From contig CANIJN010000017.1 in assembly GCA_947467625.1 (NCBI GenBank), positions 1 through 38,812 on the forward strand: 38,812 nt of DNA, given 5' to 3'. Below, piece after piece: positions 9,590 through 38,812 of this stretch. The stretch comes from Opitutia bacterium. GTDB taxonomy: Bacteria; Verrucomicrobiota; Verrucomicrobiia; Opitutales; Opitutaceae. Under the pieces are notes generated by a model, which did not search any database, was not told the DNA's origin, and worked only from the letters and a program-made list of their open reading frames with translations. Numbering within the stretch: the stretch's first letter is position 1; each line of letters starts with the position of its first letter. The position numbers and the translations under genes are program-made.

Positions 9590-9593
9590 CGCC

Positions 9594-10296: not shown

Positions 10297-11082
10297 ATGA
10301 AAACCATACCCTCACTCGCCCTCGCCCTGCTGCTCACATCGCTGACCTCTCTGCCAGCCGCTGATCCCAAGCCGACCGCATCGTCCCACGACGACGCCCG
10401 ATGGCTGCGCGAGAAAGGTACGCTGATCTTCCACGACGCCTTCGAGCGCGAGGAAGACGGCAATCTCGCCAAGGCCATCGGCAACGGTTGGAACAGCGCC
10501 ACGGCCGACCGCGTGCCGCAGATCAAAATGGCCGATCTCGACGGCGGCATTCTCAAGATCGCCAGTGCCTCCAAGGAGGCCGGCCACTCCGCGCACATTC
10601 ATCACGAAGCCGGTTTCAGCGATGGTGGCGCCGTCGTCCGCTTCAAGTTCCCCGGATTGACGAAGGGCGAGTCGCTCCAACTCGGCTTCGTCGATCGCGA
10701 GACGCAAGGCATCCACGCCGGCCATCTTTGCTACGCGAATCTCGCTCCGAACGGCATCACGCTCATGGATTGGAAAACCGGCGTCATGAACCTCGAAATC
10801 CGCCAGCGTCGGCAACCTTACCTCGACCGCAAGGAGCCGCTGCCCGCCGATCTCGATGCGTTGCTCAAGACGAAGCAGATTACCGTGCCGTGGAAAGCCG
10901 ACACTGACTGGCATGAACTCGTCCTCCTGACCGAAGGCGACGAGATGCGCCTCAGCCTCGACGGCAAGCTCGTCGCCCGCCACCGCTCCGCCGGCTTCGC
11001 CCACCCGATGAAGCGCTGGTTCAGCTTCCTCGTGCCCAACACCGTGTGGATCGACGACGTGAAGATTTGGAAAGTGAAGTGA
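10297..11082 (+). CDS. Secreted LamG/DUF1080-like (concanavalin-type) protein
   Basis: A 261-residue exported protein with a short signal peptide (MKTIPSLALALLLTSLTSLP then AADP). The mature part reads as a beta-sandwich: LIFHDAFEREEDGNLAKAIG, VRFKFPG, LSLDGKLVARHRSAGFAHPM and VWIDDVKIWKVK at the end. This pattern (FEDDF-like start, 'DDVKIW' end) is common in DUF1080/LamG-type secreted proteins of Verrucomicrobiota and Planctomycetota found near glycan genes. No catalytic residues are evident, and it may bind sugar or hydrolyse a glycoside. It sits between the aldolase gene and the GH28 gene and shares a GTGA overlap with the latter. Confidence 0.7.
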   Translation: MKTIPSLALALLLTSLTSLPAADPKPTASSHDDARWLREKGTLIFHDAFEREEDGNLAKAIGNGWNSATADRVPQIKMADLDGGILKIASASKEAGHSAHIHHEAGFSDGGAVVRFKFPGLTKGESLQLGFVDRETQGIHAGHLCYANLAPNGITLMDWKTGVMNLEIRQRRQPYLDRKEPLPADLDALLKTKQITVPWKADTDWHELVLLTEGDEMRLSLDGKLVARHRSAGFAHPMKRWFSFLVPNTVWIDDVKIWKVK

Positions 11083-15480: not shown

Positions 15481-15487
15481 GCCCCCC

Positions 15488-19928: not shown

Positions 19929-21332
19929 TTAAACATCGGCGTTCGCGCCGGTGCTGTCGGCGAACGATTCCGTTTCGACGCCGAGACGTTGCAGCATGGT
20001 GACGTAGAGATTCGACAACGGGAGATCCTGGTAAGTCGCCTCGAGCTGGTAGGGCTCTTTGCCGCCCAGCCAAGGGCCGCCCGCAGGGGTGCCTTTGATA
20101 TGATTGAGGAACTGCCCGTGCTTGAAGCCCAGGTTCTTTCCACCTGCCAGAATCAGCGGATAGTTACGCGAGAGGTGGAAGGCGCTCGAGGCGGAACCGA
20201 AGAGGAGCAGCGTGTTGTCCAGCATGTTGCCCGTGCCCCCGGCTTCGGGAGTCGCCTTCAGCTTGGCGGCAAAGCGGGCGAACTCTTCGCTCTGAAAGCG
20301 CGAATAGATGCCGAAGTTTTTCCAACCACCCGGTTCCTTCGTCGCGTGGCTCAGTTGGTGGGTGAGTTTAAAGCCCACGGCCCGCGCCAGATAATCGCTG
20401 ATACCGACGCCGTTTTCCCGACCAATCTGGTAGGTCGCGACTCGCGTGGTATCGGTTTTGAAGGCGAGGTAGAGTAACGCGTACATCGTCTGCAGATAGT
20501 TGCGCGGATCTTCCGGCGTCACGTCGAGTTGCAGGTGATCCACATCGACCGTCGCAAACGGGATATTCATCCAGCGCTTGGCCTTTTCAACTTTGATCTC
20601 CGTGTCGCGCACCGACTGGAGATACTGATCGAGCGTTTTCTGATCGTGGCCGGAAAGGAGTTTTTTCAAGGAGCGCGAGTCCTCCAAGAGATCGTCCAGC
20701 GCGCTTTGGCTCAGCGCCAATTTGCGCGCCGCATCGGCATCACTCTTTGCAAACAGCAGGTCGAAAATGCGCTTCGGTTTATGCTCCGCCGGGATAGCGC
20801 GGCCGTTGCGATTGTACGACATGGTCTGCGTGCCCCGAGGAGAGCCCGTGCCGCCGTCGGTGGACATCACGAGCGATGCGATGCGGGTATGCTCACCGGC
20901 TTGGGCGGCAAACACCTGATCGAGCGAGATGCTGTTCCGATAGTCACCACGCCCTCCCGTATTCGCTCCGGTGAGAAACTGGTCGGCGTTCGAGTGTCCG
21001 TGAACATTCCGCACCGCGGGATGAGAAAATCCGGCCAGCACCGTCATATCATTGCGCAGCGGCTCGAGCGGCTCGAGGCACTTGGTCAACGTGAAGTTCT
21101 GCCCGCTGCCATGGGGAAACCAGCTCCAGTCCGCGTGGGCCGGATCTTCCGCGAGCGGCATGGGCACTCCATCGGGAATATAAAAACACGCCAGACGTCG
21201 CCGCTTCTCCAGATTCTTCAGCTCGGCGGCGCTGGCGAGTGCGGCAAATGATTCAAACCAAGGCAGGGCCAGCGCGATGCCCGCTCCGCGCAGGAATCGA
21301 CGACGATCAATGGTGGACAGGTCGGTTTTCAT
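19929..21332 (-). CDS. DUF1552 family exported protein (second copy, Tat-type signal)
   Basis: A 467-residue homologue of the protein at 15488-16792, encoded on the opposite strand. The signal contains a strong twin-arginine motif (DRRRFLRGAGIALALPWFES). Shared markers include RRRLACFYIPDGVPMPLAED, LEPLEPLRNDMTVLAGFSHP, NVHGHSNADQFLTGAN, SISLDQVFAAQAG, IASLVMSTDGGTGSPRGTQT, IPFATVDVDHLQLDVTPEDP and LLLFGSASSAFHLSRNYPLI. Its length and motif order match full DUF1552 members better than the plus-strand copy, which is shorter and lacks several of these segments. It lies 39 nt downstream of a DUF1592-type gene, reproducing the cytochrome/DUF1552 order of the first pair. Export in folded form is predicted, and enzymatic function is unknown. 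Confidence 0.92.
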   Translation of the reverse strand: MKTDLSTIDRRRFLRGAGIALALPWFESFAALASAAELKNLEKRRRLACFYIPDGVPMPLAEDPAHADWSWFPHGSGQNFTLTKCLEPLEPLRNDMTVLAGFSHPAVRNVHGHSNADQFLTGANTGGRGDYRNSISLDQVFAAQAGEHTRIASLVMSTDGGTGSPRGTQTMSYNRNGRAIPAEHKPKRIFDLLFAKSDADAARKLALSQSALDDLLEDSRSLKKLLSGHDQKTLDQYLQSVRDTEIKVEKAKRWMNIPFATVDVDHLQLDVTPEDPRNYLQTMYALLYLAFKTDTTRVATYQIGRENGVGISDYLARAVGFKLTHQLSHATKEPGGWKNFGIYSRFQSEEFARFAAKLKATPEAGGTGNMLDNTLLLFGSASSAFHLSRNYPLILAGGKNLGFKHGQFLNHIKGTPAGGPWLGGKEPYQLEATYQDLPLSNLYVTMLQRLGVETESFADSTGANADV

Positions 21333-21371
21333 AGTGGGGTTTTGGCGGTGCGGCAGTCGGGGTTTCCTCGG

Positions 21372-24080
21372 CTAATTCGTCCTGAACAACTCACTGGTTA
21401 CGATCAGCGTGATGAGTTCGCCGAGTCGATCCCCTTTGTTTCTGAATTTCATCGTAAGTTCATCGACGCTCGCCCGGTCACTAAACGTCAGCGGCCGTCC
21501 CAAGGCGTAGGTGGTCAGTTTGTGCACCATCGCGTGGGCAAATTGATCCTGGCGGTCTGCGAGGAGGAAACGCTTCAGTCCATCGATACCCTCCAGTTTT
21601 TGCTTATTGAACAGGAGGCTGGAGGCATCGACCGGCGCCCCTTTGATTTGGTCTCGCCAACTCCCGACGGCATCAAAGTTCTCCAGCGCAATTCCCCACG
21701 GATCGATTTTCGCGTGGCAGGGCATACAGGCCGCGTGGCTCCGATGATTCGCGATCCGCTCTTTCAACGTCATCTTCGCAATCTCCGGATCAGCCAGATC
21801 GATCTCGGGCACAGCCGGGGGCGGTGGTGGCGGGGGATCATTGAGAATGCGTTCGAGAATCCAGATTCCCCGCTTGAGCGGGTGCGAATCTTTCCCGTCT
21901 GAATTCATGGCCAACAGACCCGCCTGAGCCAATAGCCCTCCTCGGCGATCCGCCGGGGTCAGCGACACCCGTCGAAAGTCACTCCCGTAGATTTCGGGCA
22001 GTCCGTAGTGCCGCGCGAGGCGCTCATTAACCATCGCGTAGTCAGCATGCAGGAAATCCAGCACGCTGTGATTTTGCCTCAGCACTTCCCTAAAGAAGGC
22101 GATCGGCTCACCCTGCATCGCTTCTTTCAACTCGGAATCGAATTGCGGATAAACCGTCTTCTCGACGTCCAAAAAATCGAGGAGCTGCAGGCCGAGCCAC
22201 TGTCGCACGAAGTGTTTGGCGAAACGCTCGCTCCGCACATCCGCCAGCATCCGTTGCGTCTGGGCGACCAGCACCGCCGGATCGTTCAGCTTCCTTTGCG
22301 CCGCCAAATCCACGAGTTCTTGGTCGGGCGTGCTACACCAGAGGAACATGGATAACCGCGTCGCCAGTTCGTCGTCCGACAGCCGCGCGACACCCCTGCT
22401 TTCCGGATCTTCCTGAATGAGATAAAGGAAGTTCGGAGACGAGAGCACGGTGGCGAGAACCTCGATCATCGCGGCCTGAAAACCATCACACCCCGGGCGC
22501 AATCGGGCGAACAACGCCATTTTCTGAGCGATCTCCGCTGCAGTTACGTGGCGCCGCCAAGCCCGCGGCAGGAAGCCCGCCAAGACCTCCCGTGCACGGG
22601 CCGTCTCGTCTCCCTCTTGCGCGGACTCGCCGAACACGCGCCGGTGCGATGCCGGTGGCCACTGCTCGTAAACGGGCGCCGTCACTTCCAGATAATCGAT
22701 CTGGATGTCTGCGCCGGTGCCGACGGCAGAACCATGATACACGCTCTGGAGCACGAGGTATTCCGACGGATTTGGAAAGCCGCCCAACGCTTTTACCCCG
22801 CGAAACGGATTGCGGCGCAGCTCGCCCAAAGGAACGGTCCATTCGTAAAACTGCGGCTGGTCAGGCGGCGCTTGGATCGCAATATCAGGACTGCCGATAC
22901 GCTCAGACGAACGGGAATTATTGCTGGGCTGAAAACCAAACTCGAGGCGGAGACTCGGCAAGCTTTTGCCCGTCGAAGCCACCCGAGCCGCGCGGGCGCG
23001 AACGCGCAGGGTGCCGGTGTCCGGCAGCGTATCGCCCAAATCAAATACATGCTGTCGATTGGCCGGTATAATCAGGACATGGGGGGAGAGCGCGGGCACT
23101 TCCGGCCGGATCGCGCTCGGTGGATAGGACATCTTTCCGCCTTGGTAGCTGTAAGTGGCCCGGGCGCCCGCACCGGTTTCCAAGTTTTTAAAATGGGTCC
23201 CACGCGGATCGATTTTTGGCGCGATCACCGGTTTGGCCGTTCTCTGCTCCGTTGGGCTCAGCGCTGGGGTGTCCCGCGCGCCCACATTCATCGTAATCCC
23301 GTAGTGGCTGACCGCCGGACGTTCGCCCCGCACGGTGGCCTTGAGCAGCGCGGTGCGACCGAGTTCGCGGTAATACTCGAACTGCACGACCGACATTTGC
23401 AGCAGGTCAGAGCTGTTCTCAAAACCCTCTTTGGTCCGAGTCTCCGGCGGCAAATCGGCGGCCAGATCGTAGGGCAACCCGAGCAAATCCTGTAGAGCGT
23501 AATTGTATTCGTAGCGCGTCATCCGGCGGAAGGATGAGTGCCCTTCCTCACTGCGTCGCACCTGCGAAGCGACCTGAATTTCCATCGAAAGCCATTCCAG
23601 TATTTTGCTGCGATTTTCACCGGACAGCTCCGGTTCATCCTTGGGCGGCATTTCGCCTTTACTGAGCACGCCCGACACCTCCAGCCACCAACTGACATCC
23701 GGACCGCGGAGCAGATCGGGATTCAGGGTATCGACCCGAAAATTGGCTTTCTGCTTCTCAGCTCCGTGACACTTGAAACAGGTCTCCCGCAAAATGGGCT
23801 CAATCTCCCGCCGGAACACCGCAAGCTTGGGCTGCGAGGTTTCGCTGCCGGCGGACGCGACCGCGTGATGCGAAAACCGCGACCGCAGCGCACCGGCCGC
23901 CTTGACCTCATCGAGGGTGGGGAGCGTCACCGTATCCGGCGCGTCTCCGCGTCTCGGCAGTTCCACCGTGGATTTCGGCGGCGTGACGTTATTCGGCTGC
24001 GCCGGGGCGAGCGCCGCCCCGAGAAACGCCAACGCGAGCAATGCAGCGCGGGGCTGCCAGGTAGGGGGCTTGGGTTTCAT
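21372..24080 (-). CDS. Planctomycete-type cytochrome protein (PSCyt1 to DUF1585), second copy
   Basis: A 902-residue exported protein with the same multidomain layout as 12754-15480. I start it at the ATG at 24080, which gives a plausible signal peptide (RAALLALAFLGAALAPAQP). The frame stays open upstream, but without one. A first haem motif CFKCH (C101, C104, H105) is followed by KGEMPPKDEPELSGENRSKI. Next come DUF1587 (FRRMTRYEYNYALQDLLGL), the beta-rich central segment, the helical DUF1595/DUF1592 part (PNFLYLIQEDPES, LATRLSMFLWCSTPDQELVD, FAKHFVRQWLGLQLLDFLDV), DUF1588 (GGLLAQAGLLAMNSDGKDSH) and a second haem motif CMPCH (C785, C788, H789) before KIDPWGIALENFDAVGSW. A proline run (NDPPPPPPPAVPEI) precedes the second haem. 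It is not in the large plus-strand block and presumably has its own promoter in 24081-24342. Confidence 0.92.
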   Translation of the reverse strand: MKPKPPTWQPRAALLALAFLGAALAPAQPNNVTPPKSTVELPRRGDAPDTVTLPTLDEVKAAGALRSRFSHHAVASAGSETSQPKLAVFRREIEPILRETCFKCHGAEKQKANFRVDTLNPDLLRGPDVSWWLEVSGVLSKGEMPPKDEPELSGENRSKILEWLSMEIQVASQVRRSEEGHSSFRRMTRYEYNYALQDLLGLPYDLAADLPPETRTKEGFENSSDLLQMSVVQFEYYRELGRTALLKATVRGERPAVSHYGITMNVGARDTPALSPTEQRTAKPVIAPKIDPRGTHFKNLETGAGARATYSYQGGKMSYPPSAIRPEVPALSPHVLIIPANRQHVFDLGDTLPDTGTLRVRARAARVASTGKSLPSLRLEFGFQPSNNSRSSERIGSPDIAIQAPPDQPQFYEWTVPLGELRRNPFRGVKALGGFPNPSEYLVLQSVYHGSAVGTGADIQIDYLEVTAPVYEQWPPASHRRVFGESAQEGDETARAREVLAGFLPRAWRRHVTAAEIAQKMALFARLRPGCDGFQAAMIEVLATVLSSPNFLYLIQEDPESRGVARLSDDELATRLSMFLWCSTPDQELVDLAAQRKLNDPAVLVAQTQRMLADVRSERFAKHFVRQWLGLQLLDFLDVEKTVYPQFDSELKEAMQGEPIAFFREVLRQNHSVLDFLHADYAMVNERLARHYGLPEIYGSDFRRVSLTPADRRGGLLAQAGLLAMNSDGKDSHPLKRGIWILERILNDPPPPPPPAVPEIDLADPEIAKMTLKERIANHRSHAACMPCHAKIDPWGIALENFDAVGSWRDQIKGAPVDASSLLFNKQKLEGIDGLKRFLLADRQDQFAHAMVHKLTTYALGRPLTFSDRASVDELTMKFRNKGDRLGELITLIVTSELFRTN

Positions 24081-25939: not shown

Positions 25940-28831
25940 ATGAAGCCCCTGTATCAGACGTTCACGTTCCTCTGTCTTGTCGGTGCACTGTGCGCGATTG
26001 CTGCCGAGCCGCCCGTGGTCGGGCCGGCCGCGCGGCTCACCGTCACGCCCTCGGGCGAGCTCGAAGTCGCGATGGCTGACGGCGCGGTCGCCCGGTTTGC
26101 CCCACTCGTGGCCGTGTTGGCCACACGGGCGAATCCGAATGTCGATATGCGCTGGGGGAAGTTTCCCGACGCCGCCTTGAGACTGAACGATACGGGCTCG
26201 CTCTACAACGTGCTGACGTGGGGTGCGAAAGACACCGGCGGGAAAGTCTCAACAGCGCACGTCGAGGACGGGTTCGACCCGACGGTTGATCGGGGCTACG
26301 GGGCCGGGCGCACCGCGAATCTCTTCGCTGCGGGCAAACTGAAGACCTTGCGTGCCAGCGCCAGCCGCTCCGACGGCAACAAAATCACGTGGGACTTCCC
26401 CGCCGATGACACGGCCACCGTGCGGCTCGAACTCGATCTGCCGACGGACGGCACCGCGCCGCGCCTGCGGCTGAAGACGACCGTGAAGGCGGACGGGTGG
26501 TATTCGTTTGGCTACGTGGGCGCCCCCGAGACTCCGGCCAACGCAGTCGAGGAACTTTGGCAGCCGCTCATCTACAACGAACGGCGTTTTCCGCATGAAT
26601 CTTTTCTCGAGGCCGCCTATCGCTGCCCGCTGCCGACCACCTTGGTCACCCATGGCGGCGTGACGACCGGCGTGCTCGCCGACCCCGCCGAGTACCCGTT
26701 TCAGCCGCTGCCGAATTTCGCAAACTCCCGCTTCGGCGTGGCCCTGCGCAACGCCCGCGGACTCGCGCAGCCGATGCTCTTCGCCCCGCTGCTCGGTGGC
26801 GCCGGTTCGCAGATGAAGGCCGGCGAGTCGCGCGAGTTCGTGATGCGGCTCGTCGTTGCCAAAGCGAACCTCTCCGCCACCTACGAGCGCGTGGCCCGCA
26901 CCCTCTACGGCTTCGCCGATGTGCGCCACAACGCTCTGGGTTCGCTCAACGCCACCTTCGAGCGCATGCTGGAATTCGGCCTGAGCGACTACGCGAAATT
27001 CAATGCCGACCTGCGCGGTTTCGCCTACGACACCGATGTGCCCGGGGCGGTGAAGAACGTCTCCGCCCTTCATCCACTCGGCCTCGCCCTCGTCACCGAC
27101 CGCCCGGAAATCTACACGCGGCTCGCGCGCCCGCTGATGGAGTATTTCGTGTCGCGCGAGCGTTTCCTTTTCACGACCGATCCCAAAGTAAAGGGCCAGT
27201 CCGCCTCTTCGCACCTGAGGGGGCTGGGCGCGCCGCTCACCGAATACGCGAATCTCTACGCGATGTCGGGCCAACGCACCCCGTTCTTTCGCACCTCCGC
27301 CGAGAGCTTGTTCGGCCGGGACCGCGTCTTAAATCTTCAAGGCAATATTCGCGGCGACAACTGGTCCAACGCCCTCGGCCTTTACCGTGCGACGGGGGAA
27401 AAGCGTTGGCTCGACCATGCCATCAAGGATGCCGACGCCTATCTCAAGACCCGCGTCGGAGTGCGGGCGGCGGACTATTCGGACCCCGATTCCCGGGGAT
27501 TGTTTTTTTGGACGGCGTTCACCCCGCAGTGGATCGAATTGTTTGAACTCTACGAAGAAACCAAGCTGCCACGCTTCCTGGCTGCAGCCCACGCCGGCGC
27601 ACGGGACTACGCGCAGTTTGTCTGGCTCGCACCGCGCATTCCCGGCGGTGACGTCCGCGTAAACGAGGATGGCCTGGCGCCGGCCTACCGGTCCGGACCA
27701 CGTTTCCCGCGGATCAAGGCCGAGCCCGAAACCGTTCCCGCGTGGCGCACGTCCGAGATCGGCCTCACCAGCGAGTCCGCCCCGACCAGCAAAGGTGCCC
27801 GCGGCATTCTCCTCGCCTGCTACGCACCGTGGATGCTGCGCATCGCTTCACTCACGAACGATGCGTTTCTCCACGACATCGCCCGTTCCGCCATCATCGG
27901 CCGCTACACCAGTTTTCCCGGTTACCATATCAACACCGCGCGCACGACCGCCTATGAGAAACCGGACTTCGCCCGTCGTGGAAAAGACGAACTCAACTCG
28001 GCGACTTCGATTCACTACAACCACATCTGGCCGCACATAGCCTTGCTGCTCGACTACCTCGTGGCGGACGCATTCGCAAAGTCGCGCGGTGCTATCGATT
28101 TTCCGGCGCGCTACGCCGAGGGTTACGGCTACCTGCAACAACGCGTGTTTGGCGATCGCCCCGGCAAGGTCTACGACGAAAGCGGTCTCTATCTATGGAT
28201 GCCGCGCGGCGTGCTCACCGTCGATCACCCCGAACTCAACTTCGTGATGGCCCGCGGCGACGCCAAACTCGCCATCGCCCTCACCAACCAGTCGAAGTCT
28301 GCGGTCAAATCTCAGGTCACGCTCTCGCGCGAGCGCATCGCGCTCGCCCCGGGCGCCAACGCGAAAGTCACCGTGTGGGAAAACAACCGGCGCATCCGCG
28401 AGGAACCGTTGCCGGCCGATGCCCGCATCGCCGTGGACGTCGCCGCCGAGGGAATTACCACGCTGATCATCAGTGGCGTGAAGCCGCGCGTAGCGTTTCA
28501 GAATCAGATTCTCGGCCGCGCCGCACGTCTCCCGGCGGAAAGTGTCGTCGACCTCGGCTGGCGCGGCGCGCGCGGCGTCGTGCTCTCATTCGGCGCGGGT
28601 GAACTCACGAGTGCTTACGTTTACCTGCCCGATCAGGAGCGCGTCGTGACGAAGTGCACGGTCCACTATCGGCAAGGCGGCGGCGAGTTCCTCACCATGA
28701 CGGACGCAGCGTATCCCTACGATTTTACGCTGCCCGTCGCGGGCGACGCGCCATTGGAGTTCTGGTTTGAGACTCAGTCAGACGCCGGGCCTGCGGAGAA
28801 ATCTCCCGTCGGGCGTCTGCTCCTGAAGTGA
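25940..28831 (+). CDS. Large secreted protein of unknown function, probable alpha/alpha-toroid enzyme
   Basis: A 963-residue exported protein that I do not recognise as a named family. The ATG at 25940 gives a good signal peptide (MKPLYQTFTFLCLVGALCAI then AAEPP). Residues about 25-290 look beta-rich (LTVTPSGELEVAMADGAVAR, TVRLELDLPTDGTAPRLRLK). From about 300 to 730 the sequence is helical with aromatic clusters typical of (alpha/alpha)6 toroid enzymes: YANLYAMSGQRTPFFRTS, DNWSNALGLYRATGEKRWLD, GLFFWTAFTPQWIELFELYE and NSATSIHYNHIWPHIALLLD. The C-terminal part is again beta-rich (LAIALTNQSKSAVKSQVTLS). This beta/helical-toroid/beta layout is shared by several polysaccharide lyase and glycoside hydrolase families. 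Candidate catalytic residues include the Tyr/His/Asn of SIHYNHIWPH. A role on the same glycan as the GH106 enzyme downstream is likely. Confidence 0.75.
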   Translation: MKPLYQTFTFLCLVGALCAIAAEPPVVGPAARLTVTPSGELEVAMADGAVARFAPLVAVLATRANPNVDMRWGKFPDAALRLNDTGSLYNVLTWGAKDTGGKVSTAHVEDGFDPTVDRGYGAGRTANLFAAGKLKTLRASASRSDGNKITWDFPADDTATVRLELDLPTDGTAPRLRLKTTVKADGWYSFGYVGAPETPANAVEELWQPLIYNERRFPHESFLEAAYRCPLPTTLVTHGGVTTGVLADPAEYPFQPLPNFANSRFGVALRNARGLAQPMLFAPLLGGAGSQMKAGESREFVMRLVVAKANLSATYERVARTLYGFADVRHNALGSLNATFERMLEFGLSDYAKFNADLRGFAYDTDVPGAVKNVSALHPLGLALVTDRPEIYTRLARPLMEYFVSRERFLFTTDPKVKGQSASSHLRGLGAPLTEYANLYAMSGQRTPFFRTSAESLFGRDRVLNLQGNIRGDNWSNALGLYRATGEKRWLDHAIKDADAYLKTRVGVRAADYSDPDSRGLFFWTAFTPQWIELFELYEETKLPRFLAAAHAGARDYAQFVWLAPRIPGGDVRVNEDGLAPAYRSGPRFPRIKAEPETVPAWRTSEIGLTSESAPTSKGARGILLACYAPWMLRIASLTNDAFLHDIARSAIIGRYTSFPGYHINTARTTAYEKPDFARRGKDELNSATSIHYNHIWPHIALLLDYLVADAFAKSRGAIDFPARYAEGYGYLQQRVFGDRPGKVYDESGLYLWMPRGVLTVDHPELNFVMARGDAKLAIALTNQSKSAVKSQVTLSRERIALAPGANAKVTVWENNRRIREEPLPADARIAVDVAAEGITTLIISGVKPRVAFQNQILGRAARLPAESVVDLGWRGARGVVLSFGAGELTSAYVYLPDQERVVTKCTVHYRQGGGEFLTMTDAAYPYDFTLPVAGDAPLEFWFETQSDAGPAEKSPVGRLLLK

Positions 28832-29119: not shown

Positions 29120-32008
29120 ATGCGTCCACCTCGTCGCCCCGCCCTTGCCTTGTTTATGCTTCTGCTCGTCGCACGCGCGAACGGTGCCGATGCGCTCGAC
29201 GCCGGCTTCGCTACGCCGCCTCCGGTCGCCCGCCCGCTCGTGTGGTGGCATTGGATCAATGGCAACGTGTCCAAGCACGGCATCGAGGCCGACCTCGCCG
29301 ACATGAAGCGCGTCGGGATCGCGGGTGTGCAGATGTTCGACGCGAGCATCTACCTGCCCGCCGGCCCCGTGCGCTACGGCACCGACCTCTGGCACGAGCA
29401 CGTGCAGCACGCGATCGCCACGGCGGACAAACTTGGCCTGGAGTTTCACCTCATGAACACGCCCGGCTGGTCCGCCAGCGGCGGCCCGTGGGTCACGCCC
29501 GAGCGCTCGATGAAAAAGCTCGTGTGGAGCGAAACAGCGGCGACCGGTGGCGGCGCGCTCACGCTCGCCGTGCCGCCGCCGAAGATCGAGCCGCTGAAGT
29601 TCCGCTCCCCGCCCGTGAAAAAAATGGAGAATTTTTTCCGCGATATCGTCGTGCTGGCCGTTCCGGCCGAATCCACCCGCCGCACTCCCGATTGGGAATT
29701 CAAGACCAAGCTCAAGGAGAAGACGCTCACCGCTGCGCCGCTCGACCCGGATGCCTCGGGCTGCATCTCCCGCGCGCAGGTGCTCGACCTCACGGCGGAC
29801 TTTGATGCCGCCACCGGCACGTTGCGCGCCAAGCTCCCCGCCGGCGAGTGGACGATTTTGCGCTTCGGATTTACGTCCACTAGTTCGACGAACCATCCCG
29901 CCGTGCCCGAGGGCCACGGCCTGGAGATCGACAAAATGGACGCGGACGCCGTGTCGTTCTACTTTGATCAGGCGCTCGGCCGCATTTTGCGCGAGGCCGG
30001 CCCGAGCGTCGGCCGCACGCTCAAAGGACTGCTTTTCGACAGCTTCGAGGGCGGCCCGCAAAACTGGACGGACACGTTCCCCGCGCAGTTCCGCGCGCTG
30101 AAGGGCTACGATTTCGTGCCGCTCCTGCCCGTGCTGACGGGCCGCGTGGTGGAGAGCCCGTCGTTCACCGAAGCGGCGCTGCGCGATTTCCGCGGCGCGG
30201 TCGAGCAGCTGATCGCGAAGAACTATTTCGGCACGATGCAGCGGCGCGCGCACGAGCGCGGGATGGTCGTTTACGCTGAGGCGCAGGGCGGACCGCTGAA
30301 TCCGGTTTCGGCGAACGAGTTTGTCGATGTGCCGATGAATGAATTCTGGATGCCCGACACCGCACCGCGTTTTCCGCGCATCAAGCTCGTCGCGTCCGTC
30401 GCCAATGTCCTCGGGCGCCCGCTCGTCGCCGCCGAGTCGTTCACCGCCAAGCCCGAAGACGGCCGTTGGCTCGCGACGCCCGCCACGCTCAAAGATCCCG
30501 GCGACTATGCGTGGACGGCCGGCATCAACCGCTTCATTTTGCACCACTACGTGCACCAACCCACCGACGACGGCCCCGGTTTCGGCCTCGGCCGCTACGG
30601 CACGCATTTCGGCCGCCTCAACACCTGGTGGCCGCTCGCCGGCGCGTGGATCGACTACGTGGCGCGCGGACAGTTTCTCCTGCAACAGGGCCGCACCGTT
30701 ACTGACATCGCGTTCCTCAACACCGAGGACCACGGCTACGCCTTCCCCGGCGACATGGTGACGACGCCGGCCGGCTACGATTTCGACATCGTCTACCCGC
30801 ACCATCTCGCCGCGATGACGTGGCGCGACGGCGCGCTCACGCTTCCGACCGGGCCCACGTATCGCGTCCTCATGCTGCCGGCGAACTGGACCGCCGATCT
30901 CACGACGCTGCGCCGCCTCCGCGATTTCGCCCGCGCCGGTGCACCGATCTACGGCGATGCGCCCGCGGCTCCCGCCGGTGTGCGCGATTACGAGGCGCGC
31001 GAGGAATTCGCCGCGCTCGTCCGCGAGTTGTGGGAAGCTCCCCGCCCGCTGATCCGGCGGGGGGCCCTGCCCGCTGCGCTCGGTGCAATCGGTCTCGCGC
31101 CCGACGTGGTGCTCCCGGCCCCGCCCGCGGGGGGCGAACTCCGCTTCATTCACCGCCGCACACCCGACGCGGAAATCTACTTCGTTTTCAATCACTCGGA
31201 TCGCGACGTCGCCGGCGACTTCACCTTCCGCGTCACCGGCCGCCAGCCCGAACTTTGGAACGCCGTCACTGGCGCGCAGGCCGATTCCCCCGGCTATCGT
31301 GCGACGGCCACCAGCACTACGGTGCCGCTCGAGCTTGAGCCCCGCGGCTCCATGTTTGTGATTTTCCGTCGCCCGCTTCTGACCCCGCGCGCCGATGCTC
31401 CGAAGACTGCGGTCGCCGCGACGCTGCCGATCGCCGGACCGTGGCACGTCGTATTCCACGACGGTCGCGGCGCCCCGCCCAACGCCACCTTTGCGACCCT
31501 CGCCTCGTGGACGGAACACGAAAACCCCGCCATCACGTTCTACTCGGGCACCGCCACGTATCACACCACCTTCGTGATTTCCGCCGCCAATTTCCGCGCT
31601 GGCGCGATCGCCACACTTGAACTCGGCACGGTCGCCGATCTCGCCGAAGTCCGGCTCAACGGAACGCTCATCGGCACCCTCTGGCAGCCGCCGTTTCGCG
31701 TCGACGTCACGCGCCACCTGCGCGCCGGCGACAACCTCCTCGAAGTCCGCGTGGCCAACCGTTGGATCAACCGCGTGATTGGCGACGAGTCACTGCCCAC
31801 CGATCTCACTTATCAACCCGAGGGCACGAATAAGTTTACCGACGGAAGGCTCAAACAACTCCCCGCCTGGCTTTACGACCGCTCTCGTCTCTCCGAGCGG
31901 AAGCGCTACAGCTTCACCACGTGGAAACACTACGAGGCAAAATCTCCGCTCGTCCCCTCCGGTCTGCTGGGCCCCGTCAAGATCGATTGGAGAACGCCAG
32001 CGCCGTAG
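29120..32008 (+). CDS. GH106 alpha-L-rhamnosidase (secreted)
   Basis: A 962-residue exported enzyme that removes alpha-L-rhamnose, typically from rhamnogalacturonan or other rhamnose-decorated glycans. After the signal peptide (PALALFMLLLVARANGADAL) the GH106 N-terminus is unmistakable: RPLVWWHWINGNVSKHGIEA, DLADMKRVGIAGVQMFDASI and EFHLMNTPGWSASGGPWVTP. Candidate catalytic acids are E387 (VVYAEAQGGPLNP) and E439 (PLVAAESFTAKPED), the Glu-rich loops expected at the barrel face. Further family strings are NRFILHHYVHQPTDDGPGFG and a C-terminal jelly-roll module (about 810-900: YHTTFVISAANFRAGAIATL, VRLNGTLIGTLWQPPFRVDV). The length is normal for the family. A duplicated promoter element lies upstream, and the second TonB receptor starts 47 nt downstream, so enzyme and receptor are probably co-expressed. 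Confidence 0.95.
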   Translation: MRPPRRPALALFMLLLVARANGADALDAGFATPPPVARPLVWWHWINGNVSKHGIEADLADMKRVGIAGVQMFDASIYLPAGPVRYGTDLWHEHVQHAIATADKLGLEFHLMNTPGWSASGGPWVTPERSMKKLVWSETAATGGGALTLAVPPPKIEPLKFRSPPVKKMENFFRDIVVLAVPAESTRRTPDWEFKTKLKEKTLTAAPLDPDASGCISRAQVLDLTADFDAATGTLRAKLPAGEWTILRFGFTSTSSTNHPAVPEGHGLEIDKMDADAVSFYFDQALGRILREAGPSVGRTLKGLLFDSFEGGPQNWTDTFPAQFRALKGYDFVPLLPVLTGRVVESPSFTEAALRDFRGAVEQLIAKNYFGTMQRRAHERGMVVYAEAQGGPLNPVSANEFVDVPMNEFWMPDTAPRFPRIKLVASVANVLGRPLVAAESFTAKPEDGRWLATPATLKDPGDYAWTAGINRFILHHYVHQPTDDGPGFGLGRYGTHFGRLNTWWPLAGAWIDYVARGQFLLQQGRTVTDIAFLNTEDHGYAFPGDMVTTPAGYDFDIVYPHHLAAMTWRDGALTLPTGPTYRVLMLPANWTADLTTLRRLRDFARAGAPIYGDAPAAPAGVRDYEAREEFAALVRELWEAPRPLIRRGALPAALGAIGLAPDVVLPAPPAGGELRFIHRRTPDAEIYFVFNHSDRDVAGDFTFRVTGRQPELWNAVTGAQADSPGYRATATSTTVPLELEPRGSMFVIFRRPLLTPRADAPKTAVAATLPIAGPWHVVFHDGRGAPPNATFATLASWTEHENPAITFYSGTATYHTTFVISAANFRAGAIATLELGTVADLAEVRLNGTLIGTLWQPPFRVDVTRHLRAGDNLLEVRVANRWINRVIGDESLPTDLTYQPEGTNKFTDGRLKQLPAWLYDRSRLSERKRYSFTTWKHYEAKSPLVPSGLLGPVKIDWRTPAP

Positions 32009-32055: not shown

Positions 32056-35000
32056 ATGAATCCCCAACGATCCTTCACTTCCTCTGTGCCCAATCGAACG
32101 TATATTTCCGTCCGACGTGTTGTTTTGATTCTGTTAGCGTCGCTCTTTTTTGTTCTTGGCGCTCAGGCCCAATCCTCGGGCGAGTCCATGGGCGTGGTCC
32201 AAGGCACGGTGTCCAACGCGGTGAGCGGTTCCCCGCTCGGCCGCGCTAAAGTCGCCATCCGAGGCACGGCCCAGGAGACGCTGACGGATGACGACGGCCG
32301 GTTTTATCTCCGGGGAGCCCCGGCCCAGGAGATCGAGTTGGAAGTTTCCTATTTGGGATTCGGGTCGCAAAGGTCACGGGTGACGGTGCCGCCCGGCGGA
32401 CAGGTTGCGCAGGATTTCAAGCTCAGTCGCCAGGGAACCGATCATCGCGGCGCGGAAGCCCAGACGATTGTGCTGGAGACGTTCCAGGTGGTCGCGGAAC
32501 AGACCATGAGCGGCCAGGCGGTCGCGATGAACGAGCAACGCCATGCGGCCAATATCAAAAACGTGGTCTCGTTCGATGAACTCGGTGACCGCGGCCAGGA
32601 AAACATCGGCGATTATGTGCGCTTTCTCCCCGGTGTCACCATTCTGGACGACGGCACAAATCCCGGTCGGATTGCGCTGGGCGGTTTTCCCGCGGAAATG
32701 TCCAACATTCAGATCGACGGCATGGATGTGCCTGCCACCGGCATTGGCGCGACCAGCAGTCGCACCGCGGCGCTGCAGGACGTGCCAATCCTGAACATCG
32801 AGCGCGTAGAGGTCTCGAAGGTGCCCACGCCCGACCTGCCCGCTTCCGGCTTGGGCGGATCGATGAACCTGATCGCGAAGACCGGAGTGGGCCTCAAGCG
32901 CCCGGTCGGTCGCTACCAAGTGTATATGAATTTCGACAACGTGGACGGCTTGAGTTTCAACGGCGGTTCGCCGCAACCGCACGACCGGGCATCGCCGCGC
33001 CACAAGGAGCCCTCGTTCAGCCTGAGCTACGCCTTCCCGGTAGGGAAGACGCTCTCGGTGAGCCTGGGGGGCTCGCGCTCATGGCGTCAGCGGCCGACAG
33101 ACGACACGCCCTCCGAGGTCGCCTTTTGGAACCTCAAGAAGACCTATTTGGCAACCGGCGCGCCGAAGGATTTGGCGCTTGCGATCACGCAGTGGCGGCA
33201 GGAGGCCTCGATCTCCCGGACCGAGAATCTCCAGCTCGGCCTCGATTGGCGGCTGACCACCCACGACACCCTCAGCCTGCAGGTCCAGGAACGCTCGGTG
33301 GTCGAAAAGAAGGCCCAGAGCTTCATGACCGCGCGCGTGAACGCCGGCTACGACGCGATCGGCAATGCGGATTACACCCAAAGCCGCGGTGCGACCGGTA
33401 GCTTCGAAATGGGCACCCTCAATCCGTCAAATTTCGACGCGACTACCGACACCAGCATGCGTTCGCTGAAGTATCAGCATCGCGGCCCGGCGTGGAACAT
33501 CGACGCGCAGGCCTCCTACTCTGCCGCCGACCGCGAGCGCAGCAGCCTCGGCAAGGGCTACTTCAACGGCGTCCTGGCCAGCGTCCTCGCCGCCAACATC
33601 CGCGGCGACGGCATCGGGAAGGGTGCGAGCATCGGACCGGAAACCTATACGATCACCCGCGCCAACGGCACGCCGGTGGATCCCTTCAACGCCAACAATT
33701 ATACGCTCGGCACGGCGAATGAAGAGTATGCCCTGTACCAGACGGACCTCACGGCTGGGCGTCTGAACGTGAGCCGCGCGATCGGCCGGAACCTCACGCT
33801 CAAGGTCGGCGGCGCTTTCAACCGTCTCGAAAAGGACGACACCCGTCCGGTCAAGAACTACACCTTTGTCGGCCGGGCCGCCGGTCAGACCGCCGTCTCG
33901 CTTTATGACCTCGTGGACGATTCGATCGACGTGAAAGTGAACGGGAACCCAGTGCGCTGGATCAGCCCGGTGAAGGCCTATGATCTCTTCGTGCAACACC
34001 CGGAGTATTTTACCCTGAACAACACGTTCATAGCGAATCGGGCGCAGAACTCCAAGCGGATGCTCGAGGATATCCTGGCCGGCTACTTTCGGTTCGATCT
34101 GCGCCTGCTCTCCGGCCGGTTGAACGTCACCAGCGGTGCCCGCTATGAGAGAACCGACCTCAAAGGCTGGAGCCTGAAGCGCGACAACTTCGCCATCTAC
34201 CAGCGGGATGCAGCGGGAAAACTGCTACTCACGAGCACGGGCGCGTTGATCCCCGTCACCAACAATGCCGACGATCGCCTCAGGCTAATCAATCAGGAGC
34301 GCGGCAACATCGAAAGCCAGGGTTACGGCGGGCTCTATCCCAGCCTGAACGCCAATTACGCGATCACCGACAACTTAGTGGCGCGGGCCGCCTATGCGCG
34401 GACACTCGGCCGTCCGGACGTGCAATACGTCGTCGCGGGAGTCACGGTGCCCGTTCCCACCGACACCAATGCGACGACGGCCGACATTATCGTAGTCGGC
34501 AATCCCGGCCTGAAGCCTTGGACCGCGGATAGTTTTCACCTGTCCCTCGACTCCTATCATCTCAAGGGCGGATTCGGCTCCATCGGAGTCTACCAGAAGA
34601 GGGTCAGTAATTTCTTCGCCCAACGCGGCCGGCCGGCCACCGCGGCCACACTTGCGGCCTACGGCATCCCGAAGGGCGACATCGCCTATATGTTGGCCGA
34701 TAACTGGGTCGTGCGCCGCTGGGAAAACGTCGGTGACGCCACTCTGAATGGCCTTGAGCTGAGCTACCGCCAGGATCTGCTGTTCATGCCGTCATGGTTA
34801 CAGTTAATGCAGGCTTGGGTGAACTACACGCATCTGAAGGTAGGCGGACGCAATGCGGCGGATTTCGTGGGTTTCAGCCCCGATACTCTGACGGCGGGGT
34901 TGAACTACATCCGGCCGCGCTTCTCCGTCCGGCTGACTGCGGCCTATCAAGCCGAGACGAAGCGATCGGAGGTTGTGGTCACTCCCGGTACCTCGGCCGA

Positions 35001-35232
35001 AGGGTTCATCCCGCAGTCCACCTTTGAATACCAGGCGGCCTACACCCGCTACGGCATCAGCGCGGAATACGCCCTGAGCAAGACCTTCGCCCTCTACGTA
35101 AACTGGGACGACGTGTTCGCCAAGGACCGCTTGGTGTATCGCCGGGCCCCGGATACGCCGGCCTTCGCCCAAACCGCCCAACGCTACGTCAGCCCTTCCT
35201 ATATCGTGATCGGCGTGAAGGGCAGTTTCTGA
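32056..35232 (+). CDS. TonB-dependent receptor with carboxypeptidase-regulatory-like N-terminal domain
   Basis: A 1058-residue outer-membrane receptor. A longer N-terminus (MNPQRSFTSSVPNRTYISVR) precedes the hydrophobic signal core VVLILLASLFFVLGAQAQ. Residues about 46-118 form a carboxypeptidase-D regulatory-like domain (VVQGTVSNAVSGSPLGRAKV, TLTDDDGRFYLRGAPAQEIE). The plug starts near 140 with TIVLETFQVVAEQ (possible TonB box) and continues with IGDYVRFLPGVTILDDGTNP, IDGMDVP and IERVEVSKVPTPDLPASGLG. The barrel ends YVSPSYIVIGVKGSF with terminal Phe. This plug pattern (FLPGVT, P.S.LGG..N) is that of CirA/TIGR01782-like receptors and differs from the receptor at 2351, so the two proteins are not recent duplicates. 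No SusD-like lipoprotein is present. Position between GH106 and the cytochrome gene (28-nt gap) suggests one transcript. Confidence 0.94.
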   Translation: MNPQRSFTSSVPNRTYISVRRVVLILLASLFFVLGAQAQSSGESMGVVQGTVSNAVSGSPLGRAKVAIRGTAQETLTDDDGRFYLRGAPAQEIELEVSYLGFGSQRSRVTVPPGGQVAQDFKLSRQGTDHRGAEAQTIVLETFQVVAEQTMSGQAVAMNEQRHAANIKNVVSFDELGDRGQENIGDYVRFLPGVTILDDGTNPGRIALGGFPAEMSNIQIDGMDVPATGIGATSSRTAALQDVPILNIERVEVSKVPTPDLPASGLGGSMNLIAKTGVGLKRPVGRYQVYMNFDNVDGLSFNGGSPQPHDRASPRHKEPSFSLSYAFPVGKTLSVSLGGSRSWRQRPTDDTPSEVAFWNLKKTYLATGAPKDLALAITQWRQEASISRTENLQLGLDWRLTTHDTLSLQVQERSVVEKKAQSFMTARVNAGYDAIGNADYTQSRGATGSFEMGTLNPSNFDATTDTSMRSLKYQHRGPAWNIDAQASYSAADRERSSLGKGYFNGVLASVLAANIRGDGIGKGASIGPETYTITRANGTPVDPFNANNYTLGTANEEYALYQTDLTAGRLNVSRAIGRNLTLKVGGAFNRLEKDDTRPVKNYTFVGRAAGQTAVSLYDLVDDSIDVKVNGNPVRWISPVKAYDLFVQHPEYFTLNNTFIANRAQNSKRMLEDILAGYFRFDLRLLSGRLNVTSGARYERTDLKGWSLKRDNFAIYQRDAAGKLLLTSTGALIPVTNNADDRLRLINQERGNIESQGYGGLYPSLNANYAITDNLVARAAYARTLGRPDVQYVVAGVTVPVPTDTNATTADIIVVGNPGLKPWTADSFHLSLDSYHLKGGFGSIGVYQKRVSNFFAQRGRPATAATLAAYGIPKGDIAYMLADNWVVRRWENVGDATLNGLELSYRQDLLFMPSWLQLMQAWVNYTHLKVGGRNAADFVGFSPDTLTAGLNYIRPRFSVRLTAAYQAETKRSEVVVTPGTSAEGFIPQSTFEYQAAYTRYGISAEYALSKTFALYVNWDDVFAKDRLVYRRAPDTPAFAQTAQRYVSPSYIVIGVKGSF

Positions 35233-35260
35233 CGGCTCACTCACAACCCCGAAATCACCC

Positions 35261-37594
35261 ATGAAGAGATCGACCCCGATACTGTTAATCGGCCTCGCAG
35301 CCTCGCTCGGTGCCGCCGAGGTGCCCCGTTTTGAAGCGGACGTGCTTCCGGTGTTGTATCGTCACTGCTTCAGCTGCCACAGCGAGAAACCGGCGAAACC
35401 CAAGGGCGGGCTACGGTTGGATTCGGCGCAGCGGATTGGCGACAGCGATGTCGTCGTGCCCGGCATGCCCGACGCAAGCGAGTTGCTGCGGCGCGTGTCG
35501 CTGCCGCCCACCGATCCAGACGTGATGCCGCCGCTGAAGGGCGGCGCGCAGCCGCTCTCCGATGCCGAGCGTGCGTTGCTGCGCTCTTGGATCACCGCCG
35601 GCGCGAAACTGGACGGATGGGTGAAATTCCAGCATCGCGAGGCACCGCTCGGTGAGCCCGGCGCGACGGTAGCGCGCACGGCGGTGCCGGAGGTCGCCCG
35701 CCACGTGGATACCTTGATCGATCGCCACCATACGGCCAAGGGCACCACGTTGAACGCGCCCGCCAGCGACGAGGTGTTTCTGCGTCGCGTCTACCTGGAC
35801 GTCGCCGGCCGCATCCCGAGTCAGGAGGAAAGCACGCGCTTCCTCGCCGACACCCGCGAGGACCGGCGGGGCCGGCTGATCGACGCGTTGCTCGCTGGCG
35901 AGGGCTATGTGAGCCACACGTACAACTGGAAGGCGGACCAGCTCCGCCTCAACCCGCGCGCGCTGGCCGGCGGGCAACCGGCGTGGCTCTACGACGACTG
36001 GGTCAAGGACGCTATCCGCACGGGCCAGGCGCATGACGAGACAGTGCGCCAGCTCATCACCGCCAAAGGCTACCTCTGGGAAAACGGCGCGGCGGGATTC
36101 TACCTGCGCGATCTCGGCATGCCCCTCGACCACGCCTCCAACCTGTCACGCGTCTTCCTCGGCACGCGAATGGAGTGCGCCCAGTGTCACGACCACCCGC
36201 TCGAGCCCGTGACGCAGAAGGATTTTTTCCAGATGGCGGCCTTCACCGCCGGGGTGTCCAACCTCAGCAGTCCCGGCGGCTATTCCAATGACAACGTCAC
36301 GCAGTGGCCGGAGATCAAAGCCCGCTTGGCGCGAATGGACGCAGACAAGGCGCTGCAAGATGGCGTGAGCCGTGCGATCTCTCCTCTGAAGCGACTCACG
36401 AAGGACACGGAAAAACCGCTCACCTTTCCGGCGACGTATGTCTACGACAAATCTGTGCAGGGCCACCCCGTGGCTCCCCGGACGCTCTTTGGCGATGAGG
36501 CTCCGGTCATCGACGGCGACCGCCGCCGGGCCTTTGCGGAGTGGATGACGTCGCCGCGCAATCCACGGTTTGCCAAGAACGCGGCCAACCGACTCTGGAA
36601 ACGCGTCATGGGCGCCGGCCTGATCGAGCCCGTGGACAGCCTCACGGCGCTGCCGCATCCGGAGCACCGCGAGTTGCTCGAAGTTCTCACGTCCGCACTG
36701 ATCGGCTTTCGTTTCGACGAGCGGGCGTTCCTCGCCGTGCTGCTGAATACGCGTCTGTATCAGAGCGAAGCCGTGCGCGAGCGACCCGAGCCCGGGTCGG
36801 CCTTCGGGTTGCACGGCCCGCTGCTGCGGCGACTATCGGCGGAACAAATCTGGGACTCGCACCTCGTGCTCCTCGTGCCGGATCTTGATGAACGCAAATC
36901 CGCCGTGCGGCACGAGGGATCCCTTTTGAATCCGGCGCGGTTACGCCGGCTCACCACCATGAACGCCGATGAGATTATCGCGCGGTCCCGCGACGAAATG
37001 GCCTACCGCGTCCGGCGCCGGGAACACACGCTCCGGCTCGCAGAGCAGAAGAAGGAACTCGCCGCCGCCCAAGCCGGCGGGAATGCCGCCGAAGTGCGGC
37101 GCGTGCAGGCCGACCATGTCCGGGAGAACGAGACTTTTTATAGTCCTGAACTGCAGGCGTTGGAAATGGGCGATGCCCAACCGTCGCCGGAAACCGATCC
37201 GCGCTGGCAATCGCTGCCGCGAAATTTTCTGCGCGCCTCGGAGATTCCGCTGCCGTTGCCGCTCGGCCACTTTCTGCGCCAGTTCGGCCAGTCGGATCGG
37301 CGCGAGATCGACGCGTTCAACCGCGATCCCAACACCACCCACGCCCTAGCGTTGATGAACGGCGAACTCGCCGCGCGCATCCTCGCACCAGACTCCCATC
37401 TGCGGCGCCAGTTGGCGGCGGCCGACGGGCGCAGCGAACGAATGACAGCGCTCATCTACCGCGCCATCCTCGTGCGCTCTCCGAGCGCCGGAGAGCTCTC
37501 GACCATAGCGACGCTCACGGCCACGAGCCTCACGCCGGTGGAGGACACGATTTGGGCGCTGCTGAACTCGCCCGAATTTCTCTTCCAACGTTAA
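35261..37594 (+). CDS. Planctomycete-type cytochrome protein (PSCyt1-DUF1549-DUF1553)
   Basis: A 777-residue exported protein with signal MKRSTPILLIGLAASLGAAE. A PSCyt1 domain carries CFSCH (C36, C39, H40), GGLRLDS and DVMPPLKGGAQPLSDAERAL. DUF1549 (PSCyt2) follows from about residue 145: VDTLIDRHHTAKG, RRVYLDVAGRIPSQEESTRF, LLAGEGYVSHTYNWKADQLR, with a second ECAQCHDHP (C306, C309, H310). DUF1553 (PSD1) occupies the C-terminal half (FAEWMTSPRNPRFAKNAANR, GLIEPVDSLTALPHPEHREL, SAEQIWDSHLVLL, ALMNGELAARIL, LIYRAILVRSPSAGELSTIA). A helical, charged insert near 565-620 (RREHTLRLAEQKKELAAAQA) may be a coiled coil. Two haem-like motifs imply redox activity outside the cytoplasm. The DUF1501 gene follows after 20 nt, the usual partner for this architecture. 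Confidence 0.92.
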   Translation: MKRSTPILLIGLAASLGAAEVPRFEADVLPVLYRHCFSCHSEKPAKPKGGLRLDSAQRIGDSDVVVPGMPDASELLRRVSLPPTDPDVMPPLKGGAQPLSDAERALLRSWITAGAKLDGWVKFQHREAPLGEPGATVARTAVPEVARHVDTLIDRHHTAKGTTLNAPASDEVFLRRVYLDVAGRIPSQEESTRFLADTREDRRGRLIDALLAGEGYVSHTYNWKADQLRLNPRALAGGQPAWLYDDWVKDAIRTGQAHDETVRQLITAKGYLWENGAAGFYLRDLGMPLDHASNLSRVFLGTRMECAQCHDHPLEPVTQKDFFQMAAFTAGVSNLSSPGGYSNDNVTQWPEIKARLARMDADKALQDGVSRAISPLKRLTKDTEKPLTFPATYVYDKSVQGHPVAPRTLFGDEAPVIDGDRRRAFAEWMTSPRNPRFAKNAANRLWKRVMGAGLIEPVDSLTALPHPEHRELLEVLTSALIGFRFDERAFLAVLLNTRLYQSEAVRERPEPGSAFGLHGPLLRRLSAEQIWDSHLVLLVPDLDERKSAVRHEGSLLNPARLRRLTTMNADEIIARSRDEMAYRVRRREHTLRLAEQKKELAAAQAGGNAAEVRRVQADHVRENETFYSPELQALEMGDAQPSPETDPRWQSLPRNFLRASEIPLPLPLGHFLRQFGQSDRREIDAFNRDPNTTHALALMNGELAARILAPDSHLRRQLAAADGRSERMTALIYRAILVRSPSAGELSTIATLTATSLTPVEDTIWALLNSPEFLFQR

Positions 37595-37614
37595 CCGCCC
37601 TTTCCCCAGCCCCC

Positions 37615-38812
37615 ATGAAATCAATCGTCACCGACCTATCCCGCCGCGCGTTTGTCGAACGCTTCGTCAAAACCTTTCTGGGCGTGAGTCTGCTGCCGGG
37701 CCCCAGTGCCTTGCGGGGCGCCGGCGCGCCAGCCCGCGCCCGGGCCAAGAGCGTTATCTTTCTCTACCTGCGCGGGGGACTTTCGCACATCGACACCTTT
37801 GATCCAAAGCCCGGCCGCCCCGAGATGGGCGGCGTGAGCGCCATCGGGACCACTGCGGACGGCGTGCAGGTCTCCGAGTGGTTTCCGCAGATGGCGCGGC
37901 AGATGCACCATGTTTCGCTCGTGCGCTCCATGACCTCGACGCAGGGCATCCACGAGCTCGGCGCCTACTCGGCGCATACCAGCCACTTCATGACCCCAAC
38001 GATCCGGCACCCGTCGCTCGGCTCGTGGGCCGCGAAACTGATCGGCTCGCAAAACCGGTTTCTGCCGGGCAACATCCTCATCAACGGCAGTCCGCAGCAT
38101 CCGGGCAGTGGATACTTCCCCGCCCACCTCGCCCCGCTGCCGATCGTCGATCCGGGCGCGGGCTTGCAAAACTCCGTGCTGCCCGCCGCGGTGAGCGAGG
38201 CGGATTTCAATCGCCGCGCCGCGCTCGCACGCGCCATCGGCAGTCACTTCGTGCAGCAGACGCCGCACCGCGACGCCGCCGCCTATCTCAAAGTTCAACA
38301 GGAGGCCGCCGCCCTCATGAAGAGCGAAGACCTCAAGGTCTTCGACATCACGCGCGAAGACGCAAAGACACAGGCGGCCTACGGCGCGCAAACCTTCGGC
38401 AAGGGTTGCCTGCTGGCCCGCCGCCTGGTCGAGGCCGGCGTGCGCTTCATCGAGGTCGAAGACGATCAGAACTGGGACACGCACAACGATCAGATTAAAT
38501 CCATGCGCCTCATGACGCCCTCGGTGGATCAGACGATGGCCGCCCTCCTCGCAGATCTCCATCAGCGCGGTCTACTCGCGAGCACGCTCGTGGTCATGGC
38601 GACGGAGTTCGGCCGCACGCCTCAGATCAGCACCGTCACCGCCGGGCGCGGGCATCATCCGGGGGTGTTTACGTGGTGGCTGGCCGGCGGTGGCGTGAAA
38701 GGCGGCTATGTCCACGGCCAGTCCGACGCCATCGGCGAACACGTCGCGGAGAATCCCGTCACCATGCCCGATCTCAACGCGACGGTGGCGATGGCCCTCG
38801 GCATGGACATCG
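37615..38812 (+). CDS. DUF1501 family exported protein (cut by right edge)
   Basis: From the ATG at 37615 an unbroken frame of 399 codons runs to the end of the window. A Tat-like signal is present (SRRAFVERFVKTFLGVSLLP). The family is recognised by SVIFLYLRGGLSHIDTFDPK (replacing the more common 'L...GG.SH.DTFDPKP'), HHVSLVRSMTSTQGIHELGA, SLGSWAAKLIGSQNRFLPGN, FGKGCLLARRLVEAGVRFIE, WDTHNDQIK, TLVVMATEFGRTP, and GRGHHPGVFTWWLAGGGVKG. DUF1501 has an alkaline-phosphatase/sulfatase-like fold in which D, H and E of these strings could bind metal, but the substrate is unknown. Full members have about 420-480 residues, so only the last few dozen are missing. It is the partner of the DUF1549/DUF1553 cytochrome 20 nt upstream. 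Confidence 0.92.
   Translation, partial: MKSIVTDLSRRAFVERFVKTFLGVSLLPGPSALRGAGAPARARAKSVIFLYLRGGLSHIDTFDPKPGRPEMGGVSAIGTTADGVQVSEWFPQMARQMHHVSLVRSMTSTQGIHELGAYSAHTSHFMTPTIRHPSLGSWAAKLIGSQNRFLPGNILINGSPQHPGSGYFPAHLAPLPIVDPGAGLQNSVLPAAVSEADFNRRAALARAIGSHFVQQTPHRDAAAYLKVQQEAAALMKSEDLKVFDITREDAKTQAAYGAQTFGKGCLLARRLVEAGVRFIEVEDDQNWDTHNDQIKSMRLMTPSVDQTMAALLADLHQRGLLASTLVVMATEFGRTPQISTVTAGRGHHPGVFTWWLAGGGVKGGYVHGQSDAIGEHVAENPVTMPDLNATVAMALGMDI

Follow-up and report, generated by a model that had tools for sequence, protein, structure and literature searches.

Exchangeable TonB receptors in front of a planctomycete-type cytochrome–DUF1501 pair in Opitutaceae: a proposed glycan-utilisation operon

Abundant freshwater, soil and marine bacteria encode tens of planctomycete-type cytochromes and DUF1501 proteins in each genome. 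The module formed by a PSCyt2–PSD1 protein and DUF1501 was described in Planctomycetes and Verrucomicrobia by He 2017 (PMC5615132) and, as far as can be judged from later accounts (PMC2754498, PMC4452313, PMC4960237), by Studholme 2004 and Kamneva 2012, and it is already suspected of acting in carbohydrate metabolism. The 38,812-nucleotide stretch analysed here (the window), from an Opitutia bacterium, carries such a pair directly behind a TonB-dependent receptor gene. Do receptor, cytochrome and DUF1501 protein work as one unit, and is the receptor's cargo what the redox pair acts on, as the original prediction proposed?

Pfam matches and coordinates agreed that the three genes lie where they had been placed (Table 1), on one strand, with 28 nt between receptor and cytochrome and 20 nt between cytochrome and DUF1501. 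With 47 nt from the GH106 stop to the receptor start and this tight spacing downstream, the apparent operon with GH106 also held up; a scan of the + strand, in itself weak evidence, found no terminator-like or promoter-like sites in the gaps. The receptor matched Plug (E 4e-12), TonB_dep_Rec_b-barrel (3e-27) and CarboxypepD_reg, and scored 255.7 bits against NCBIfam TIGR01782, under its cut-off of 310. The cytochrome combines PSCyt1, PSCyt2/DUF1549 (1e-37) and PSD1/DUF1553 (9e-28) in a single protein, with the DUF1501 gene adjacent in the same direction. That gene is incomplete because the window spans the whole of contig C17, one of 362 in the draft assembly, and ends with it.

Table 1. Features of the receptor–cytochrome–DUF1501 locus and of a related locus in the same genome.
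Feature	Position	Strand	Basis or remark
Exported protein of ~960 aa, uncharacterised	25940..28831	+	Homology to ~885 aa proteins
GH106 alpha-L-rhamnosidase	29120..32008	+	Pfam PF17132, E 7e-188
TonB-dependent receptor, TonB-Xanth-Caul type, N-terminal CarboxypepD_reg	32056..35232	+	Pfam, NCBIfam
PSCyt1-DUF1549(PSCyt2)-DUF1553(PSD1) protein, 777 aa	35261..37594	+	Pfam, motifs
DUF1501 protein, 399 of about 426 aa	37615..38812	+	Pfam, 1.5e-101
482-nt overlap with start of contig C277, 98.3%	38331..38812	+	Nucleotide match
PSCyt1 remnant of a cytochrome N-terminus, between two TonB receptors	L069:3639-4052 (own contig C104)		Overlaps second receptor by 4 nt

Contig C277 of the same assembly, whose first 482 nt match the end of the window, probably continues the operon. 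Beyond the overlap lies the remainder of the DUF1501 gene, then genes for a SASA-type esterase, an esterase-like protein and a Gfo/Idh/MocA dehydrogenase, and finally the first part of another TonB receptor. The close relative L109 has the same order on a single contig, without the SASA gene, and its dehydrogenase is 97% identical to the one on C277; C277 might, less probably, begin with a near-identical paralog of the window end. The esterase-like protein belongs to no known family, has a GFSRGE motif and gave a weak PDB match to acetylxylan esterase only.

Among the relatives searched, the gene order extended beyond this genome. The window cytochrome falls into a tight group of relatives at 59% identity or above, and in five more Opitutaceae (L109, L110, L111, L113 and L116) a receptor lies 27–30 nt before the cytochrome, a conservation of spacing that exceeds chance. 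Two genes separate receptor and cytochrome in L114 and one does so in L132, and in L112 the Gfo/Idh/MocA dehydrogenase directly precedes the cytochrome and a different receptor follows DUF1501. GH106 is likewise found upstream of the receptor in L109, L111, L113, L114 and L132. Two more receptor–cytochrome–DUF1501 loci, on contigs C59 and C104, occur in the genome itself, their cytochromes 30–33% identical to that of the window. Orthologs of the pair in Verrucomicrobiales and Planctomycetota (59–68% identical) had no receptor beside them in the loci inspected outside Opitutaceae (for example L117, L118, L120, L121, L122, L127, L128 and L129). The receptor-first order is thus a feature of one family, the Opitutaceae, and not of this genome alone.

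The receptor has not simply been inherited with the pair. Compared with the window, L116 has a cytochrome that is 88% identical but a receptor that is only 64% identical. The receptors of L116 and L113 share 89% identity, while the L113 cytochrome is 81% identical to those of L116 and of the window. Within Opitutaceae, cytochromes that are 81–90% identical are preceded by one or other of two receptor alleles, which share 64% identity. The receptor at C59 is unrelated to the window's and that at C104 is 31% identical. At C59-type loci the receptor is retained in L188 and L189, a sulfatase gene takes its place in L190, and in L191 and L192 the position immediately before the cytochrome holds no receptor; the adjacent cytochromes of these three receptor-less relatives are 81–86% identical. 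At the C104-type locus of L197 the order is sigma factor, anti-sigma-like gene, receptor, cytochrome and DUF1501, with 2 nt between receptor and cytochrome. In C104 and in G001, a second receptor has been inserted after a residual piece of the cytochrome N-terminus, a piece that L197 lacks. What looked like a free-standing PSCyt1 gene at this position proved to be this remnant, the trace of a receptor insertion.

Allele swapping and loss at the C59-type orthologs rule out the receptor as a fixed partner; because alleles are exchanged in the window's group and receptors come and go at two other loci, the receptor is therefore better regarded as swappable, and such genes seem to have been placed before these pairs repeatedly and lost again. 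This bears on the strictest form of the original prediction, in which receptor, cytochrome and DUF1501 make up one dedicated unit and the redox chemistry acts on the particular cargo of the receptor. That form can draw on the 28- and 20-nt gaps, the same order in five more genomes and at C59 and C104, and the 2-nt gap in L197, yet it fits poorly with divergent receptor alleles before highly similar cytochromes, with loss or replacement at the C59-type locus, and with the absence of receptors beside orthologs outside Opitutaceae, and we consider it rather improbable. What survives of the one-unit claim is the tight shared order; what does not is the receptor as a constant member, as it is exchanged independently of the cytochrome. 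That the receptor imports the pair's substrate is still the most economical idea that the gene order suggests. We tentatively favour, with a little less than even confidence as part of the whole explanation developed below, the receptor as an exchangeable import part in front of an older, more widespread redox cassette. Its swapping indicates which part of the locus likely sets specificity and which carries the constant chemistry.

What stands in front of the pair elsewhere suggests a different reading. In L117, L118, L120, L121, L122 and L128 the pair is preceded by ECF sigma and anti-sigma-like genes, whereas the window has the receptor and GH106 there instead. The pair might then be a general PVC stress or envelope redox housekeeping module under ECF control, with receptors and glycoside hydrolases incidental in carbohydrate islands. 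In R. baltica a PSCyt2–PSD1 gene is thought to be controlled by the ECF gene RB10049, whose expression rises in response to several stresses (PMC2754498), and the arrangement before the non-Opitutaceae orthologs resembles RB10049/RB10051. Receptor swapping and the sheer abundance of receptors would suit this reading too. Of the 67 gene slots flanking DUF1549/DUF1501 genes of the genome, 11 held a TonB receptor. This exceeds an assumed background of about 4% (Poisson P about 1e-4), but relative to other genes of the same neighbourhoods the local enrichment was weak (2.1-fold, Fisher P 0.06); these statistics were computed on genome regions with our own gene calls. On the other side, sigma and anti-sigma genes are frequent but not defining for the PSCyt2/PSD1–DUF1501 module, many pairs being without them; about 34 DUF1549 copies per genome and the kept 27–30-nt spacing are better suited to substrate-specific modules; and glycan-processing genes recur beside the orthologs in two phyla. 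We regard the stress reading as unlikely, though worth keeping in mind. The 5.6-Mb genome (G000) has 150 or more TonB plug domains, about 34 DUF1549 matches and 42 DUF1501 matches, and one of its DUF1501 genes (C70:18385-19557) appears broken, with an in-frame TAA and two separate pieces.

The proteins themselves point to the periplasm. The cytochrome has two c-heme motifs, CFSCH (residue 36) and CAQCH (residue 306); the latter, in the DUF1549 domain, is invariant in 28 homologs, and the PSCyt1 part is missing in more distant ones. Judged by eye, its N-terminus is of Sec type without a lipoprotein cysteine and that of the DUF1501 protein is of twin-arginine type (LSRRAFVERF), which together place both in the periplasm. 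With no lipoprotein or other surface signal found in the pair and N-termini of this kind, the proposal of delivery to the surface found no backing in the sequences and we set it aside. For the cytochrome, no solved relative was found by sequence or fold, and its model had moderate confidence (pLDDT 77).

A model of a DUF1501 ortholog (pLDDT 88.6) matched the sulfatase/alkaline-phosphatase superfamily among solved folds (Foldseek; sulfatases scored best, with E 3e-7 and a TM of only 0.44), and a sequence profile matched 7stt (E 0.005). These matches, together with the sulfatase genes that adjoin many pairs, could point to a hydrolase role for DUF1501, sulfatase- or phosphatase-like, in an operon that strips sulfate or other esters from the glycan, with the cytochrome needed only for maturation or protection of the hydrolase. 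The fold match is distant, however, no clear role remains for the heme protein in this account, and the [CS]xPxR sulfatase signature was missing in 31 of 32 aligned DUF1501 sequences, on which ground a canonical sulfatase was rejected; the hydrolase reading as a whole strikes us as quite improbable.

Across relatives, the companions of the pair appear to be carbohydrate redox genes, joined by the gene for the esterase-like protein, in combinations that differ from locus to locus. One of them encodes a 1480-aa protein that fuses 3keto-disac_hyd, GDSL, DUF7133, HEAT and cytochrome c (PVC-heme) domains; it immediately precedes the receptor in L116 and follows DUF1501 in L117 and L118, so that the 3-ketoglycoside hydrolase domain PF06439 is found beside the orthologs in these three; no PF06439 gene was found among the called genes of the window. 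The Gfo/Idh/MocA dehydrogenase had the BT_2158 glycoside 3-dehydrogenase as its best NCBIfam model, at 333 bits and thus well under the cut-off of 750, with 8tdf/8tdh as its best PDB relatives (E 1e-70). Beside this ortholog group it was seen in Opitutaceae only, the genome's own copy being on C277 rather than in the window. The main new observation is that the gene at 25940-28831 shares the pair's neighbourhood across phyla: its product has 40% identity with L118:18081-20735 across 853 aa, and this ~885 aa family is encoded beside orthologous cytochrome–DUF1501 pairs in L118, L122, L127 and L129, in both Verrucomicrobiota and Planctomycetota. The protein had no Pfam or NCBIfam match and the family no PDB relative.

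Two published findings help in reading these neighbourhoods. He 2017 (PMC5615132) described CBMs in PSCyt genes and sulfatases in their vicinity, and proposed that the products, predicted to be periplasmic or cytoplasmic, work on oligomers after import; in Caulobacter, a periplasmic LacABC dehydrogenase acts with a DUF1080 hydrolase through 3-ketoglycoside formation (Price 2022, PMC9007349). Taken with the neighbour genes, they make an oxidation module in the periplasm, acting on imported glycan oligomers, our preferred reading. Because an endo-xanthanase also falls within DUF1080 (PMC10881899), the domain does not prove 3-keto chemistry. In a hand count over three relatives, 4 DUF1549 genes lay within 6 kb of BT2158-like genes against about 2.0 expected, and 6–7 lay near DUF1080 genes against about 5.2; a genome-wide link was thus not clearly above chance in these three, and the mechanism may apply to this ortholog group without extending to every pair.

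Our best explanation, which we put slightly short of an even chance, is a glycan-utilisation operon in which an exchangeable receptor feeds a periplasmic sugar-oxidation cassette. The receptor would import oligosaccharides of an acetylated, rhamnose-containing plant glycan, for which rhamnogalacturonan-type pectin is our best guess, and GH106 rhamnosidase, esterases and the cytochrome–DUF1501 module would process them in the periplasm. The DUF1549/DUF1553 protein would serve as a periplasmic di-heme electron carrier. Together with the Tat-exported DUF1501 protein, and with the BT2158-like dehydrogenase and the 3-keto-disaccharide-hydrolase/PVC-heme proteins, it may take part in an oxidative, 3-keto-type sugar step, either carrying out the oxidation or draining it into the respiratory chain. 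In favour are the conserved spacing with GH106 and the receptor in Opitutaceae and the SASA gene, esterase-like protein and dehydrogenase that C277 puts after DUF1501; for pectin-type sugars, the window holds GH28, DGOK, KDPG aldolase and an MR/MLE enzyme. Against it stand the orthologs in Verrucomicrobiales and Planctomycetota that do without a TonB receptor, not all of which retain 3-keto-type neighbours.

Comparison with known systems sharpens what is particular here. The window shares with the PSCyt2–PSD1/DUF1501 module its domain architecture, the neighbouring DUF1501 gene and the many copies per genome, but has a TonB receptor and GH106 directly in front, in an operon without a sigma gene. 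The BT2158-like dehydrogenase and 3keto-disac_hyd domain in orthologous clusters, and the periplasmic redox chemistry on glycosides proposed here, recall the 3-ketoglycoside pathway (Caulobacter LacABC with DUF1080; Bacteroides BT2157/BT2158), whereas the electron-handling proteins are DUF1549/DUF1553 and PVC-heme rather than LacABC, and the scores fall below equivalog cut-offs. A TonB receptor beside glycoside hydrolases and esterases is reminiscent of a SusC/SusD locus, yet this one is TonB-Xanth-Caul-like (SusC score 30 bits against a cut-off of 368), and no SusD match was found among the called genes of the window. Unlike a FecIR-type transducing receptor, it carries CarboxypepD_reg and no STN domain; the C104-type receptor, which has sigma genes in L197, matched STN only weakly (E 6e-5, under the cut-off).

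Relative to the open-licence literature, the receptor-linked variant, the exchangeable receptor and the conserved neighbourhood of the ortholog group appear to be new, though earlier descriptions may exist. This neighbourhood, with its rhamnosidase, receptor, glycoside-3-dehydrogenase-like and 3-keto-hydrolase-like genes, is partly common to two phyla and includes the cultured Brevifollis gellanilyticus (L122), so function can be tested on a named substrate class. A broader proposal, to which we give a low probability, is that DUF1549/DUF1553–DUF1501 pairs in general are interchangeable periplasmic glycan-oxidation modules that feed electrons from 3-keto-type or related chemistry to the respiratory chain, DUF1501 being catalytic or substrate-binding, and that they are retargeted by swapping the receptor or hydrolase genes in front. 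If true, it would assign a role to families that have lacked one ever since their first description.

The remainder of the window holds several other genes. Positions 5292-12749 encode sugar-acid catabolism (a DHDPS-family aldolase, an MFS transporter, an MR/MLE enzyme, 2-keto-3-deoxygalactonokinase and KDPG aldolase) as well as an unknown 261 aa protein and a GH28 polygalacturonase-family protein. At 2219-5248 lies a gene for a 1009 aa protein with no Pfam match, whose N-terminus (VLSPFEVSGNPNDSYEATNTNSLTGISTPLNKAPI) resembles that of a TonB receptor, which the Pfam models would then have missed. Further planctomycete-type pairs occur at 12754-16792 (+) and 19929-24080 (-), each a PSCyt1-PSD3-PSD5-PSD4-PSCyt3-PSD2 protein adjoining a DUF1552 gene whose product has a twin-arginine-like N-terminus.
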